A program made the translations under genes and the position numbers. Shown here in pieces: positions 20,987-28,075 of a DNA stretch of 64,000 nt. The first letter of the stretch is position 1. Each line of letters begins with the position of its first letter. Below the pieces are notes generated by a model that had not been told where the DNA came from, did not search any database, and saw only the letters and a list, made by a program, of their open reading frames with translations. Origin of the DNA: Bacteroidota bacterium (GTDB lineage: Bacteria > Bacteroidota > Ignavibacteria > UBA10030 > UBA8401); assembly GCA_021796215.1 (NCBI GenBank), contig JAJYOK010000003.1, positions 62,001 through 126,000 of the forward strand, written 5' to 3'.

Positions 20987-21075
20987 AAAAAAGATTGTGC
21001 ATGCTCCAGAATCACGCACACATGCACTCCAATCTTTTCAACCCTGATTGTCATTATGAAGGAGCAGGCATATTT

Positions 21076-22608
21076 ATGAATCGCCCGTTAACACTTGGCG
21101 AACTCAAAAAAAGCGGCTACAAAGTTCTTGCGGTAAAAGAAGAACTGCGCAACAACCTTATCTGCAAAATTCAGAAAAACGAGGCGCTGTTTCCCGGCAT
21201 TATCGGTTACGAAAAAACGGTGATCCCGTCACTAATCAACGCGATTCTTGCGAAACACGACATTATCCTTCTCGGATTGCGCGGGCAAGCAAAGTCGCGG
21301 CTCGTGCGGCAGCTTCCTTCGCTGCTGGACGAATATGTTCCTATTATCAAAGGAAGCGAGATCAACGACAATCCGTTTGCACCGGTGAGCAAATTCGGCG
21401 TGGACACGGTGAAAGAGCACGGCGATGCAACAGAGATCGAATGGATTCACCGCGACCGCCGCTTCAGCGAGAAGCTTGCAACACCGGATGTAACAATTGC
21501 AGACCTCATCGGCGACATTGACCCGATCAAAGCGGCAACACAGCGGCTGCATTTTTCCCACGAAGGCGCAATTCATTTCGGATTGATTCCGCGAAGCAAC
21601 CGCGGTATTTTTGCCATCAATGAACTGCCCGATCTTCAGCCGAGAATTCAAGTCGGCTTGTTCAATATTCTTGAAGAGAAAGATATTCAGATTCGCGGAT
21701 TCAACATCCGCATTCCTCTCGATGTTATGATCATTTTCACCGCGAACCCGGAGGACTACACCAACCGCGGCAATATCATCACACCGCTGAAAGACCGCAT
21801 TGACTCACAAATTCTCACACATTATCCGCGCACGCTCGAAGATGCAATTGCAATTACGGAACAGGAAGCGTGGATCCGCCGCAACAGATTCGATGTGCGC
21901 GTGCCGCAGTACTTCAAGGAAATTATTGAGCTAATTGCTTTCGAAGCGCGCAAGAGTGAATTTGTTGACCAGAAATCGGGCGTGAGCGCTCGTCTCACTA
22001 TTGCCGCGATGGAAAATCTCGTCAGCAATGCTGAGCGGCGCGCGATTACTCTGAAAGAAAATTATGTTGTGCCCCGTATATGCGATCTGCCGCATGTTCT
22101 TCCCGGTATGACCGGAAAAGTCGAACTTGTGTTTGAAGGCGAACAAGAAGGCGCGGCGAAAGTCAGCAAGGCGCTTATTGGAAAAGCGGTGCGCAGCGTT
22201 TTCAAAGAATATTTTCCCGACCCGCTGCAACGACGCGCGCGTCAGCAGCAACAACAGCAACAAGCAGATCCCGAGTACGGGAAAATCGTCGGATGGTTTG
22301 AGGCGGGCAACTCGCTGGAAGTTGCCGATGAAATGCCGATCGCCGCATACTTCGGTGAATTAGACCGCGTGAAAGGATTGCGCGAGCTTACGAAACGCCA
22401 TTTGAAGATTGAGGAAAACAATAAATATGAGCTTGCCTCCGCAATGGAGTTTGTGCTCGATGGCTTGCATCAGAATTCTAAAATTGCAAAAGATGAAGTT
22501 GATCACATCACGACATACAAAGACATGGTTGGAAGCATTTTCACCGGCCGCGGCTCCGATCCGGGTGAAGATTTGGATGATGATTTCACTTCTGCCGCGC
22601 GGCAATAA
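21076..22608 (+). CDS. MoxR/magnesium-chelatase-type AAA+ ATPase
   Basis: The 510-residue protein (start at 21076, AAGGAG upstream) has the Walker A-like GLRGQAKSRL, a sensor/Walker B region IFAINELPDLQPRIQVGLFN, and VMIIFTANPEDYTNRG. This corresponds to the magnesium chelatase subunit I/MoxR clade. A Gln-rich stretch (about residues 385-395) separates the AAA+ part from a helical C-terminal tail. It is followed 31 bp later by a VWA-domain gene, the usual partner. Such pairs act as ATP-driven remodelling or metal-insertion chaperones. The client is not identified; there are no bacteriochlorophyll genes nearby. Confidence 0.87.
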   Translation: MNRPLTLGELKKSGYKVLAVKEELRNNLICKIQKNEALFPGIIGYEKTVIPSLINAILAKHDIILLGLRGQAKSRLVRQLPSLLDEYVPIIKGSEINDNPFAPVSKFGVDTVKEHGDATEIEWIHRDRRFSEKLATPDVTIADLIGDIDPIKAATQRLHFSHEGAIHFGLIPRSNRGIFAINELPDLQPRIQVGLFNILEEKDIQIRGFNIRIPLDVMIIFTANPEDYTNRGNIITPLKDRIDSQILTHYPRTLEDAIAITEQEAWIRRNRFDVRVPQYFKEIIELIAFEARKSEFVDQKSGVSARLTIAAMENLVSNAERRAITLKENYVVPRICDLPHVLPGMTGKVELVFEGEQEGAAKVSKALIGKAVRSVFKEYFPDPLQRRARQQQQQQQADPEYGKIVGWFEAGNSLEVADEMPIAAYFGELDRVKGLRELTKRHLKIEENNKYELASAMEFVLDGLHQNSKIAKDEVDHITTYKDMVGSIFTGRGSDPGEDLDDDFTSAARQ

Positions 22609-22639
22609 TTTCTAGCAAATACCTTTTACAGGGACAGCA

Positions 22640-23740
22640 ATGAGATTTCAGTATTCAAAATGGACACCTGAATCGCAGACCGACGAACAGCGGCTCCAAA
22701 ACCTGATGCAGCTGTTCAGCCATCTTCTTGTGAAAACAAGCGGTGATGTGCAGGAAGCGATGGAATGGCTGCGCGAACTTGCGCAGCAGTACGGCATTTT
22801 CGATGAGTCGCTTTCAATGGATAATCTCATTGATAAACTGCGGGAAATGGGCGTGCTTGAAGAAGTGAATGGCACGCTGAACTTAACGACACGCGGAGTT
22901 CAAAAAATCCGCAAAGATGCCTTGAAAGAAATTTTCTCTTCGCTTAAAAAAGGAACACTCGGCTCGCATGAAACGCCGGCAACGGGAAGCGGCGTTGAGC
23001 GCTTGAGCGAAACAAAAAAATGGACGTTCGGCGATATGCCAACGAACATTGACCTGACTTCGACAATGACCAATGCGTTCAAGCGGGACGGCATAGAAAA
23101 TTTCCAGCTCAGTGAAGACGACCTTGAAGTATATGAAACGGAAAACCTCTCTTCCTGCGCTACGGTGCTGATGGTAGATATCAGCCACAGCATGATTTTG
23201 TACGGCGAAGACCGCATTACGCCCGCAAAAGAAGTCGGGCTTGCGCTGAGTGAGCTGATCATGACAAAGTATCCGAAAGATTATCTCGCGCTGGTTGTTT
23301 TCGGCGACGATGCCAAGCTTGTGAGCATCAATGAGCTGCCGTTCCTCGAAGTTGGTCCGTTTCACACCAACACACGCGCCGGCTTGCAGCTTGCCCGCAA
23401 TTTGCTCCGGCGCTGCGGCAACGTCAACAAGCAGATTTTTATGATCACGGACGGCAAGCCGTCGGCTATTTTCGAGGATAACGGGCGGCTCTATAAAAAT
23501 TCGTTCGGACTTGATCCGCGCATTGTCAACAAGACACTTGATGAAGCTGTCGCGTGCCGGCGCGAAAAAATCACCATCAGCACATTTATGGTAGCGCGCG
23601 ATCCGTACCTCATTAACTTTATCGAAGAGCTGACAAAATCAAACCACGGACGTGCTTATTATTCCTCCCTGAACGATCTCGGACAATTCATTTTTGTTGA
23701 TTACATCCGGAATCGCCGCAAACGCTTTTCTGCAGGATGA
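22640..23740 (+). CDS. VWA-domain protein, partner of the MoxR ATPase
   Basis: This 366-residue protein has a helical N-terminal half and a von Willebrand factor A domain from about residue 170. The MIDAS metal site is VDISHSM (DxSxS), with the later threonine in HTNTRAGL and the aspartate in ITDGKPS. The protein has no signal peptide, so it is cytoplasmic. Its position 31 bp after the AAA+ gene matches the ChlI/ChlD-like and MoxR-VWA pairs, in which the VWA protein recruits the substrate. Confidence 0.88.
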   Translation: MRFQYSKWTPESQTDEQRLQNLMQLFSHLLVKTSGDVQEAMEWLRELAQQYGIFDESLSMDNLIDKLREMGVLEEVNGTLNLTTRGVQKIRKDALKEIFSSLKKGTLGSHETPATGSGVERLSETKKWTFGDMPTNIDLTSTMTNAFKRDGIENFQLSEDDLEVYETENLSSCATVLMVDISHSMILYGEDRITPAKEVGLALSELIMTKYPKDYLALVVFGDDAKLVSINELPFLEVGPFHTNTRAGLQLARNLLRRCGNVNKQIFMITDGKPSAIFEDNGRLYKNSFGLDPRIVNKTLDEAVACRREKITISTFMVARDPYLINFIEELTKSNHGRAYYSSLNDLGQFIFVDYIRNRRKRFSAG

Positions 23741-23827: not shown

Positions 23828-24976
23828 ATGAAAAATATTCGAGAAGCATTGTTCCTGCTTGTCGCCGGAACATTCCTTGTGCAGACCGCACACGCTCTTC
23901 CGCGGTTCGCCATACGAACCGGGGCAAAATGCCAGTCGTGCCATGTCAATCCGACGGGCAAAGGAATGCGCAATGCTTTCGGCTTCAACTACGGAAATGA
24001 AGAATTGCCGATTCCGACATTTAAAGAAGCGACCGGACTTGATGATTTTTCTCCGAGTTTAACTCAGTATTTCAGCATCGGTGCAGATTACCGCACGTTG
24101 TTCTTCTATAACCAAGCCGATAAAACCAGCAGCTTTTTCCAGATGCAGGGCAATTTGTATTTCAATCTCCGGCTGAATAAAAAAGTTTCCGTGTATGTGG
24201 ACAAAGAACTGTACGGAAGTTTTGAGGCGTTCGGACTGGCAAAAATTTTGCCGCTCGATGGTTATGTGAAGCTCGGACAATTTATGCCGGCGTACGGCAC
24301 AAAAGTAGACGACCACAATCTTTTCATTCGGGGCGGACCGTACGATCCAAGGGTTTTCGGCGGAGAGTTTCCTCCCGGCTATCCGCTCGGATTGAATTTT
24401 GGAGCGGGCATGGAAGATGACGGCATTGAACTCGGTTTTGCGCCGAGCATTTTCACTTTTCAATTCGGATTGTTCAACGGCTTTCCGGGCGGCGGACTTA
24501 CTGCAACGAATGCGACAAAATATAAAACAATCTCAATCCGCGGTGATGCAACGATCACGAGCGATCTCATTAACATTAACGTGGGAGGATCGTACTACAA
24601 CAATCCAAATCCACCTATAGGAAGAGCCCATACGAGTTACGGAGCATTTGGCGCAGTGTCGCTCTTCAAAAATCTGACGCTGAATAGTGAAGTTGATTTC
24701 GTAAAAACGCCGTTCGGCGCAAGTGATTCGATCGGCATTATGTATTACAACGAAGTGAATTATCTTCTTGTAACGGGCATTGATCTTAAAGTAGGCTACG
24801 AGTTTTACGACCCCAACAAAGATATCCAGAATGGAAGTTTCTCCGTCATCACGCTCGGCGCAGAACTATTTCCGTTGAGCGGTGTTGAAGTGCTGCCGCT
24901 GTACCAAATCAACACAGAGACGCCGAAAGATTTCAACAATAATAATTTTCTGCTTTTATTCCACTTTTACTTATGA
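23828..24976 (+). CDS. outer-membrane beta-barrel with N-terminal c-type haem site
   Basis: A signal peptide (cleavage likely after AHA, residue 23) is followed by RTGAKCQSCHVNPTGKGMRN, a single CXXCH haem site (C35, C38, H39). The remaining ~330 residues alternate aromatic and polar beta-strands and end in FLLLFHFYL, as in outer-membrane barrels. One chain thus joins a haem domain and a barrel. The 'CQSCHVNPTG' type is known to me from porin-like proteins in bacteria with extracellular electron transfer, but I cannot cite a characterised one. It heads a run of three cytochrome-type genes. Ribosome-binding site GGAGG. Confidence 0.82.
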   Translation: MKNIREALFLLVAGTFLVQTAHALPRFAIRTGAKCQSCHVNPTGKGMRNAFGFNYGNEELPIPTFKEATGLDDFSPSLTQYFSIGADYRTLFFYNQADKTSSFFQMQGNLYFNLRLNKKVSVYVDKELYGSFEAFGLAKILPLDGYVKLGQFMPAYGTKVDDHNLFIRGGPYDPRVFGGEFPPGYPLGLNFGAGMEDDGIELGFAPSIFTFQFGLFNGFPGGGLTATNATKYKTISIRGDATITSDLININVGGSYYNNPNPPIGRAHTSYGAFGAVSLFKNLTLNSEVDFVKTPFGASDSIGIMYYNEVNYLLVTGIDLKVGYEFYDPNKDIQNGSFSVITLGAELFPLSGVEVLPLYQINTETPKDFNNNNFLLLFHFYL

Positions 24977-24986
24977 GTGAAATCCG

Positions 24987-25655
24987 ATGACAAAAACATT
25001 TTTACGAAGCGTTCTCACACTTCTGCTTGTTGCCGGATTAAACTCTTGCAGCGATATGGGCACCGACCCGAAGCCGCCAGTTCAAACGCCAAACGCTCCG
25101 GCGGTGACGCAGGTATTTCCCGATTCCGGGTTTGTCGGGGATACGGTATTCATTCACGGAACGAATTTCGGAACGGCGCAAGGAAGCAGCACGGTACAAT
25201 TCGGTTCCGTTGCCGCCGCAGAAATTCTTGCGTGGCAAGACACGGCGATCACGGTAAAAATTCCTGACGGAGCAGCCAGCGGAGCGATCTCTATAACGGT
25301 CACTGTTGGCGGCAGCGAAAGCAATTCTGCGGCATTCACAGTTCGTTCAGTTGTGCCTGTTGCAACAATTTCATTTGCTGCCGATGTTGAGCCGCTTTTT
25401 GTTTCCTACGGATGTACAAGCTGTCATGGCGGAACAAATAATCTATTTGTGGATTCGTACGCGCATCTCATGGCGGGAACGAGCCTTCACGGACCGGTCG
25501 TTACTCCGGGCAATGGTGAAGGAAGTGTTATCATTCAAAAATTAAGAGGAACTGCATCGTTCGGTGTACGAATGCCGCAAGGCGGGCCGTATCTCCCCGA
25601 TTCATTAATCAGCAAAATCTCAACGTGGATTACTCAAGGTGCGCACAACAACTAA
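24987..25655 (+). CDS. lipoprotein with IPT/TIG domain and monohaem cytochrome domain
   Basis: The 222-residue protein has a lipobox GLNSC (Cys21), an IPT/TIG immunoglobulin-like domain (VTQVFPDSGFVGDTVFIHG to residue ~120), and a C-terminal cytochrome-like domain with GCTSCHGG (C143, C146, H147) and a distal Met in VRMPQGGPYL. It would sit as a surface or periplasmic lipoprotein carrying one haem c. It follows the barrel gene by 10 bp and shares the SYAHLMAG...G.GSVIIQKL layout with the next protein, so the two cytochrome domains are homologous. Confidence 0.85.
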   Translation: MTKTFLRSVLTLLLVAGLNSCSDMGTDPKPPVQTPNAPAVTQVFPDSGFVGDTVFIHGTNFGTAQGSSTVQFGSVAAAEILAWQDTAITVKIPDGAASGAISITVTVGGSESNSAAFTVRSVVPVATISFAADVEPLFVSYGCTSCHGGTNNLFVDSYAHLMAGTSLHGPVVTPGNGEGSVIIQKLRGTASFGVRMPQGGPYLPDSLISKISTWITQGAHNN

Positions 25656-25685
25656 TTCACTTCACACTTAGAAAGGAACAATGCG

Positions 25686-26153
25686 ATGAAGTTTGCTGTC
25701 TCAATAATGTTTGTTCTTGCCGTTGCTTTCGCAGGCTTTACTCTGCAGCAAAGTGGAACGAAATTGAAAATGCCAAAGATGGCGCTAACAGCGACAGCGC
25801 CACAGTCGGCAGAGAAAACAAAAAGCAGCGATAAGAATGATTCAGGCGAGGCAACTATTTCGTTTTCAAAAGACGTCTTCCCAATCATTAAGAAACATTG
25901 TCTTCCCTGTCATGCATCCGACAGCGACAATAAAAGCGAACTTGTTCTTGAATCATACAACGACATCATGACAGGCGGAAAACACGGAACGCCGGTTATT
26001 CCGGGAAAAGGAAGCGAGAGTTTGATCGTTCAAAAGGTTGGACCTAATCCTCCGTTCGGCAGGCAAATGCCGGTGATGTCACGGATAAAATTGACCGACG
26101 GGCAAATTGATACACTCAGTATGTGGATTGATCAGGGCGCAAAGAAAAATTGA
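25686..26153 (+). CDS. exported monohaem c-type cytochrome
   Basis: The 155-residue protein has a signal peptide, a Lys/Ser-rich linker and a cytochrome domain. The haem site is HCLPCHAS (C72, C75, H76), with a methionine in GRQMPVM as likely distal ligand and a LTDGQIDTLSMWIDQGA ending. This resembles the Planctomycete-type cytochrome C domain often found next to substrate-binding modules. It probably passes electrons in the periplasm or at the surface with the two preceding proteins. A clear AAGGA ribosome-binding site and a terminator frame the gene. Confidence 0.87.
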   Translation: MKFAVSIMFVLAVAFAGFTLQQSGTKLKMPKMALTATAPQSAEKTKSSDKNDSGEATISFSKDVFPIIKKHCLPCHASDSDNKSELVLESYNDIMTGGKHGTPVIPGKGSESLIVQKVGPNPPFGRQMPVMSRIKLTDGQIDTLSMWIDQGAKKN

Positions 26154-26176: not shown

Positions 26177-26209
26177 AAAAAGGCTCTGAAATTTTCCAGA
26201 GCCTTTTTT
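26177..26209 (+). terminator. terminator between convergent genes
   Basis: The arms AAAAGGCTCTG and CAGAGCCTTTT are followed by T residues. It ends the cytochrome operon and may also serve the convergent CHRD gene. Confidence 0.88.
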
Positions 26210-26236: not shown

Positions 26237-27982
26237 TTATTTCAACATGAGCATCTTCTTTACCGCTGTAAATCCATCGCTGCTGTTGAGGCGGTAGAAA
26301 TACATTCCCGATGCAAGATGCGATGCATTAAATTTTACAGCATAAGAGCCGGCAGATTTTATTCCATCAACCAAAGATGCAACTTCCTGTCCAACTAAGT
26401 TGTACACTTTCAGCGTTATGCGTGCAGATTTCGGAAGTTGAAAATTTATCGTTGTGCTGGGATTGAACGGATTCGGATAATTCTGATCAAGCGAATACAA
26501 AGCCGGCACACCTGCGGAAATATTCTTCTTCACGCTCGTAATAACCTGCTCATAGCCCAAATGCATTGTCCCGCTGATTTCTCCTGCGGGCGCAAAGTTC
26601 GAATGAACATTCAGGTAGATCCGGTTTTCAATGAACAACGTGGTAATGCTGTCGGGATTATTCCAATAACCGGATGCAGTGCTGTCGGTAAACGACGCCG
26701 GCATCAGAACACTGCCTTCCGGTGACAGATGAAAATGAGCAGCCGTGTACGTACCATTCAATCCTGCAATCGTCGCGCGGTAACGAAGTGAATCGCCAAA
26801 AGTCGCCCACGCCGTGCCGGTTGCTGTGGAGCTTGTCCCTGCCTGCGAACCGTCCATTGTTGTTGTCAAAACTCCATCGTGTGAAATTAATGTCCCGCTA
26901 ATTTCTCCGACAGGATATGTGTTAGAATGAATGTTGACGTACAATCTGCCGAGCACCAAATCTACCAAATCCTGATCGGCAAGACCGGTCCAATCTTCAT
27001 CGGCGGTGTTTCCGATAAAAGTAATTGGGTGAACAATGCCGCTTGCTCTGTGAATATGCGCGGCAGTGAATGCACTCGAAAGCCCGGCATACGTGACGCT
27101 GTAATGAACATCAAGCGTGCCCAAATTCAAAGCAGCCCATGCCGTGCCGGTCGCAGTTGATGCCGTTCCGGCTTGCGAGTTATCAAGAGCGGCACGAAAA
27201 CCCAATTGGCCGACCGGGATAAGCGTTCCGCTAATTTCACCCTCCGGATAAACATTCGTGTGAATGTTGGCGTAAATGTTTCCACGAATAAACATTGCCC
27301 AAATACTATCCGGCATACCTGTAATACTTCCGCTTGCCGAACTGTCGGTAAACGCTATACCTTCAACAACATTTGTGGTCAACGACGAATGAAAATGTGC
27401 GCCTGTGAACGAGCCTTGTAAGCCGGCATAGGTAAAGTCGTACGTAATCTTGTTGAACGAGCTGTCCTGAGAATCGGAATCAAAAACAACCCATCCTGTT
27501 CCGAGACCTGTGGAATTTGTTCCTGCGCTGCCGCCGTTCATCGCAATAACAAATCCGCCTTGATGTGGACTACAGCGCCCTTGAATTTCGCCTGCCGGAA
27601 ACGCAGACGTATGAATATTCACATAAATACCATGACCACTGAAGAATTGTCCTAGAAGGCTGTCGGGAATATTCGACCACACACCCGAAGCCGTGTTGCT
27701 GGTGCCGAATGAAATCGACTCAACGACTGCTCCACTTTCCGAGTGGAAGTGAGCGGCTGTAAAATTCCCTTGCAAGTTTTGATAGGTGATGAGATATGTT
27801 AGAGTTTTCAAATCCGGCGAGAGAACTCCCCACATTGTTCCTCTTCCGCTCGAAGCCGTTCCTGCCGTTGCTCCATCAAGTGAAGCTGTTATTAGTATTT
27901 GCGCTTCACTAGACCGCGGCAGTCCTGCGAGAAAAAGGAAACAAATAAATAGAATATGGCGGCAATGCAGAAACCTTTTCAT
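26237..27982 (-). CDS. CHRD-repeat secreted protein with type IX sorting domain
   Basis: This 581-residue protein starts at 27982, where an AAGGAGGAG ribosome-binding site precedes MKRFLHCRHI; the longer frame uses an upstream TTG and is rejected. After the signal peptide come four CHRD (chordin) units of ~115 residues. Each has a FTAAHFH- or FTAAHIH-like motif and a YVNIH(T/S)...GEI.G motif. The C-terminal ~80 residues are a type IX sorting domain (QNYPNPFNPSTTINFQLPKS ... GMYFYRLN). It should be exported and attached to the surface. The role of bacterial CHRD proteins is unknown. Confidence 0.9.
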   Translation of the reverse strand: MKRFLHCRHILFICFLFLAGLPRSSEAQILITASLDGATAGTASSGRGTMWGVLSPDLKTLTYLITYQNLQGNFTAAHFHSESGAVVESISFGTSNTASGVWSNIPDSLLGQFFSGHGIYVNIHTSAFPAGEIQGRCSPHQGGFVIAMNGGSAGTNSTGLGTGWVVFDSDSQDSSFNKITYDFTYAGLQGSFTGAHFHSSLTTNVVEGIAFTDSSASGSITGMPDSIWAMFIRGNIYANIHTNVYPEGEISGTLIPVGQLGFRAALDNSQAGTASTATGTAWAALNLGTLDVHYSVTYAGLSSAFTAAHIHRASGIVHPITFIGNTADEDWTGLADQDLVDLVLGRLYVNIHSNTYPVGEISGTLISHDGVLTTTMDGSQAGTSSTATGTAWATFGDSLRYRATIAGLNGTYTAAHFHLSPEGSVLMPASFTDSTASGYWNNPDSITTLFIENRIYLNVHSNFAPAGEISGTMHLGYEQVITSVKKNISAGVPALYSLDQNYPNPFNPSTTINFQLPKSARITLKVYNLVGQEVASLVDGIKSAGSYAVKFNASHLASGMYFYRLNSSDGFTAVKKMLMLK

Positions 27983-28075
27983 AAACTCCTCCTTGTGTTT
28001 AACGGCTAATTGAAAAATGTTCAATTAAAGGTTAAAACAAAAAGAAGTGAACGAAAGATTCCGCAATTTCATTTT

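Follow-up and report, generated by a model that had tools for sequence, protein, structure and literature searches.

The window, which is the whole 64,000-nucleotide stretch of DNA analysed here, contains a compact unit of three co-directional genes, A, B and C, each encoding a protein with a single CXXCH haem site. The features of the unit are as follows.

23828 to 24976, plus strand: gene A, a fused monohaem cytochrome-porin of 382 aa, with a signal peptide, CXXCH at residues 35-39 and a predicted OprP-type barrel from about residue 80 to residue 382.
23930 to 23944, plus strand: CXXCH codons of A (CQSCH), within the conserved motif ALPRFAIRTGAKCQSCHVNPTGKGMRNAFG.
24143 to 24145, plus strand: codon of Met106 of A, invariant, a candidate haem ligand or pore residue.
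24314 to 24316, plus strand: codon of His163 of A, in a DDH motif, a candidate haem or metal ligand.
24962 to 24964, plus strand: codon of His379 of A, in the last strand, predicted to be pore-facing near the periplasmic rim.
24987 to 25655, plus strand: gene B, a lipoprotein with a TIG domain and a C-terminal PSCyt1-like monohaem domain (CTSCH; Met in RMPQGG).
25686 to 26153, plus strand: gene C, an exported PSCyt1 monohaem cytochrome (CLPCH; Met in QMPVM).
26177 to 26208, plus strand: terminator-like hairpin 3' of C, closing the unit (RNA fold -17.1 kcal/mol, z -5.1).

The ATG start of A is preceded by a GGAGG-like site, its signal peptide was judged from the sequence, and its C-terminal end, FLLLFHFYL, is strand-like. 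The intergenic gaps measure 10 bp between A and B and 30 bp between B and C, in agreement with the first-pass annotation, which had described a haem-barrel protein, a TIG lipoprotein cytochrome and an exported cytochrome lying no more than 40 bp apart. The hairpin downstream of C also faces a convergent CHRD gene and was not picked up by a simple terminator scan, probably because its U-run forms part of the stem. The convergent gene (26237 to 28024, minus strand) encodes a secreted protein with four CHRD domains and a type IX secretion tail. On the other side, an AAA (MoxR-like) and VWA pair occupies positions 20995 to 23740 and immediately precedes A in several same-family genomes; it was rejected as a part of the system, since two genomes of that family (G096 and G162) lack A yet keep the VWA gene.

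Homologues of A are present in 141 of the 197 genomes of the class, including 126 of 178 high-quality genomes, and A is single-copy in its own genome. Full-length members are confined to the class in a phylum-wide sample, with weak or partial matches outside it. Searches of Pfam and NCBIfam with A gave no fitting model, and PDB sequences gave no match, the profile of A returning weak, local haem-motif matches with a best E-value of 0.011. Nine CXXCH-coding patterns occur in the window against four expected, a count reached in 4 of 100 shuffles and not significant alone. The first-pass annotation had staked its reading on conservation of this motif, which is invariant in all 68 aligned homologues, with identity to A as low as about 20%, and a chance origin of the haem site is rejected on that invariance. 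Residues invariant across the 68-member alignment include C35, C38, H39, G44, G52, G85, R89, M106, G150, P154, G199, G253 and G344, and the leader of the family follows the consensus [AS]LP[RK]FA..TG..C..CHVNPTGGGMRN..G. A 24,413-residue open frame overlapping one homologue (G033) proved to be an artefact of a masked run of N.

The barrel of A aligns with haemless Porin_O_P relatives over 280 columns at E 7e-20 in profile-profile comparison, against 0.04 to 0.8 for unrelated barrels used as a control, all of these E-values referring to single comparisons. The profile of A retrieves haemless porins of about 325-450 aa, nearly all of them well over the cut-off of PF07396 (Porin_O_P) and most scoring between 4e-12 and 2e-22. 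The kinship is profile-to-profile only, as A itself gives no direct match to PF07396 and one of the 68 members reaches E 5e-4. Five members of the family match Porin_4 directly, the best at 1.9e-6. Additionally, A shows some 15-16 amphipathic segments, its hydrophobicity alternating about three times as strongly as in shuffled sequence. An AlphaFold model built on a shallow three-sequence alignment was uninformative (pLDDT 26.6). Judged by sequence homology, an OprP-type barrel in A is established, and it would probably comprise 16 strands. The combination of an N-terminal haem site and an outer-membrane barrel in one protein, as initially proposed, is thereby supported by both the Porin_O_P homology and the amphipathic alternation.

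Three residues outside the haem site stand out in the family. M106 is conserved in 68 of 68 members, H163 in 67 and H379 in 66. None of the three is conserved in the haemless porins, where position 106 is usually Arg, and a sample of 18 Cyc2 sequences holds no invariant Met or His outside CXXCH except a start Met. H379 lies four residues from the C-terminus, and the alternation of the C-terminal strand predicts for it a lumen-facing position close to the periplasmic rim, the site expected for a Cyc2-type haem plug. M106, H163 and H379 may thus be regarded as candidate sixth haem ligands or as a putative metal-binding pore site.

The first-pass annotation had assumed that the porin-cytochrome conduits known so far are built from separate multihaem proteins and had presented a conduit with one haem per chain as a minimal variant. 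The premise is wrong: in Cyc2, a characterised outer-membrane protein, a monohaem cytochrome and a 16-strand OprP/OprO-like porin are fused in one chain, and three members have been shown to oxidise iron (PMC8406198). The layout is likewise not a new architecture, since this fused monohaem porin is known and the haem region of A is homologous to it. The haem-region profile of A matches strict Cyc2 at E about 1e-10, with a PSCyt1 control at 0.014, and the full profile retrieves a Cyc2 of strict layout (L146, family f33) at E 3e-10. The barrels match at about 1e-4, compared with 0.03 between two Cyc2 subgroups; accepted Cyc2 proteins are reportedly homologous mainly at the N-terminus (PMC5566968).

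The motifs that define Cyc2 are absent from A. The signature AXPXFAR[Q/K][T/Y] upstream of CXXCH occurs in none of the 68 members, whose consensus is [AS]LPRFA..TG, and the PXL motif four residues past CXXCH is replaced by NPTGGGMR (consensus HVNPTGGGMRN). When the Cyc2 motif was searched for at the DNA level, strict Cyc2 genes turned up within the phylum, mostly in family f33 and with a few in the class of A. Two genomes of that class (G093 and G145) carry a strict-motif Cyc2 together with A, so the two are distinct genes. A is Cyc2-like through the descent of its haem region as well as by architecture, yet it is no strict Cyc2. Earlier work describes Cyc2 homologues from MAGs of Ignavibacteriaceae and Bacteroidetes (PMC6344600), and Ignavibacteriales are among the sources of FeGenie iron-oxidation matches, which outside one site belong dominantly to Cyc2 cluster 3 (PMC8478452).

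The partner cytochromes of A are small one-haem proteins. B (222 aa) has a lipobox, ..GLNSC, a Pfam TIG domain (E 2e-13) and CXXCH at residue 143, and C (155 aa) matches Pfam PSCyt1 (PF07635) at E 7.9e-8 and 33.2 bits, over the 22-bit cut-off. B scores 18 bits against the same model, under that cut-off. A homologous haem domain in the two, claimed from the outset, is borne out by blastp at E 4e-18 and 39% identity. The genome of the window has three PSCyt1 matches in total, two of them within this unit. A Met-Pro or Met-Ala following the haem site, a distal-type Met, is kept in nearly all PSCyt1 partners and agrees with high-potential carriers. Some PSCyt1-like domains of partner cytochromes at other loci (L080, L081, L063 and L067) have CX4CH in place of CXXCH. 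In lipoprotein partners of A, the lipidated cysteine is followed in the pattern C-x-D-x-G, with Asp at +3 in 9 of 10, compared with 14% of other lipoproteins; in B and its homologues this pattern is possibly a sorting signal.

Gene context could be read at 19 loci of the order to which the window belongs, and at 17 of them A is immediately followed on the same strand by one to three PSCyt1 cytochromes. The C-type exported cytochrome is the common partner, and lipoprotein B is found at roughly half of these loci, carrying either TIG or a different spacer. Conservation of the three-gene order therefore holds in the order for a downstream monohaem cytochrome, with B and its TIG domain optional. 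It does not extend to the rest of the class, where A frequently has a Rieske protein beside it (11 of 70 loci), a type IX-secreted cytochrome whose CH.NP.GGG.RN motif resembles the haem region of A (7 of 70) or no redox protein; none is recognised within three genes of A at 35 of the 70 loci examined class-wide. In more distant relatives, Rieske [2Fe-2S] proteins replace the PSCyt1 partners (L058, L060-L063, L067-L070 and L072), and these loci sometimes add YceI-like and small membrane proteins. At L036, L043, L044, L097 and relatives, type IX-secreted proteins of 220-340 aa with the motif C..CH.NP.GGG.RN lie just upstream of the A homologue; they may represent a free-standing or surface form of the A haem domain, devoid of a barrel.

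A occurs only in genomes with a haem-copper oxidase. COX1 is found in all 141 A-bearing genomes, and A is absent from all seven genomes without COX1 (Fisher p 1.1e-4, a significance inflated by shared descent and resting on only seven oxidase-less genomes). Within-genus contrasts occur in two genera, G033 versus G181 and G192 in one and G166 versus G141 in the other. Loss of A through loss of cytochrome c biogenesis was rejected, because the seven genomes lacking both A and COX1 all retain the cytochrome c assembly genes (Cytochrom_C_asm), and the pattern is thus not one of general c-type cytochrome loss. General aerobic life would be an alternative cause. Elsewhere in the genome of the window, CXXCH pairs with a 219-bp period mark a multihaem cytochrome of very large size, built of 73-aa repeats (G000:C34:246161-248404), and further multihaem clusters lie at C20:170-961 and C26:44247-46489. 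With these multihaem cytochromes present, A need not be the main extracellular route of the organism.

An electron-transfer role of A is likely in view of the haem site and barrel, the invariant CXXCH and the conserved order of monohaem partners, and it may extend to extracellular electron transfer. Our preferred reading, with a probability of roughly 0.6, is that A is a Cyc2-like outer-membrane conduit passing electrons inward to the haem-copper oxidase via C and B. The basis of this reading is the haem-plus-barrel layout, its conservation across the class, homology to Cyc2 and Porin_O_P, the PSCyt1 link and the co-occurrence with the oxidase. The N-terminal c-type haem would form a plug, presumably at the periplasmic mouth of an OprP-type barrel of probably 16 strands. 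A small dissolved donor, perhaps Fe(II) or a similar reduced solute, would enter the pore and give one electron to the plug haem. From there the electron would pass to the one-haem carriers of the same operon, C and, where present, B, and these would hand it on, probably inward, towards the haem-copper oxidase. It is also possible, and we advance it tentatively, that A represents a haem-porin family separate from Cyc2, in which M106, H163 and H379, lying around or above the haem, make up a distinct redox site in the pore. Its extracellular donor might be something other than iron, and it would serve as the standard point of electron entry at the outer membrane throughout this class of Bacteroidota.

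The same conduit could run outward, with periplasmic C and B passing electrons to A and onward to an extracellular acceptor such as Fe(III) or humics, or to a surface-exposed B. We consider this unlikely. The C-x-D-x-G of lipoprotein B partly resembles the Bacteroidetes lipoprotein surface-export signals SDDDD and SDDFE (PMC5080379), but a single acidic residue does not amount to a complete export signal, and about half of the loci in the order lack B. The genome does possess multihaem cytochromes; however, the strict co-occurrence of A with the haem-copper oxidase and the high-potential types of its partners (Rieske and His/Met PSCyt1) fit inward transfer better, and the characterised relative, Cyc2, is an oxidase.

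Decidedly unlikely, in our assessment, is a solute porin whose covalent haem serves gating or sensing of redox state, O2, NO or peroxide, with the cytochromes being incidental or involved in maturation or signalling. Such a role would suit a barrel whose kin are everyday Porin_O_P solute porins, as well as the lack of a neighbouring cytochrome in many relatives outside the order, and an O2-related sensor would account for the link to aerobic life equally well. Against this, the carriers repeatedly paired with A are of three kinds, namely PSCyt1, Rieske and type IX-secreted cytochromes whose haem motif is related, and homology to Cyc2 favours electron transfer. That A is a plain Cyc2-family iron oxidase, already counted as a Cyc2 homologue in the earlier surveys (PMC6344600, PMC8478452), is very improbable. 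The two do share their architecture and a homologous haem region, but none of the 68 members has the defining motif, G093 and G145 carry a strict-motif Cyc2 besides A, and M106, H163 and H379 have no invariant Met or His counterparts in the Cyc2 sample.

Single-haem cytochrome-porins and Cyc2 homologues from Ignavibacteriaceae and Bacteroidetes MAGs are already known. The apparent novelty lies in a subfamily that spans the class, diverges in its motif, has near-invariant pore residues and a carrier cassette of its own, and is strictly linked to the oxidase; the Cyc2 homologues of earlier surveys may include it. If the inward-conduit reading is true, most members of a largely uncultured class possess an electron conduit in the outer membrane that annotation has missed and that is coupled to the respiration of oxygen, the Cyc2-type architecture extends past its defining motif, and a widespread type of solute-porin barrel can bear a haem plug, with M106, H163 and H379 as named residues to test. 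Surveys of iron oxidation based on Cyc2 models might then miss the family of A or count it as an iron oxidase without evidence.

Several known systems resemble the unit in part. The Mtr/Omb-type porin-cytochrome complexes (MtrCAB, OmbB/OmaB/OmcB and PioAB) likewise combine a barrel, cytochromes and a lipoprotein cytochrome in one operon. They use a separate large barrel, 26-stranded in Mtr, together with multihaem cytochromes, whereas in A the haem is fused to the barrel with one haem per chain; the separate barrel and multihaem periplasmic and surface cytochromes that characterise an Mtr/Omb complex are not found in A, B and C. Porin_O_P proteins (PF07396), the OprP/OprO phosphate-selective porins, share with A the aligned barrel and a G-x-F-x-P-[YF]-G turn, but the Porin_O_P relatives have neither CXXCH nor a conserved Met or His at positions 106, 163 and 379. 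The resemblance to PSCyt1 (PF07635) lies in C directly and in B through its homology to C; the two differ in being single-haem operon partners of a haem-porin, with B adding a lipobox and a TIG domain. Cyc2, known from Acidithiobacillus, Mariprofundus and Chlorobium (PMC8406198), has in common with A a signal peptide, a single N-terminal CXXCH, a length of about 380-450 aa and an OprP/OprO-type barrel. The partners of Cyc2 are Cyc1 and rusticyanin, whereas those of A are PSCyt1 or Rieske proteins, and A is further set apart by its near-invariant M106, H163 and H379.
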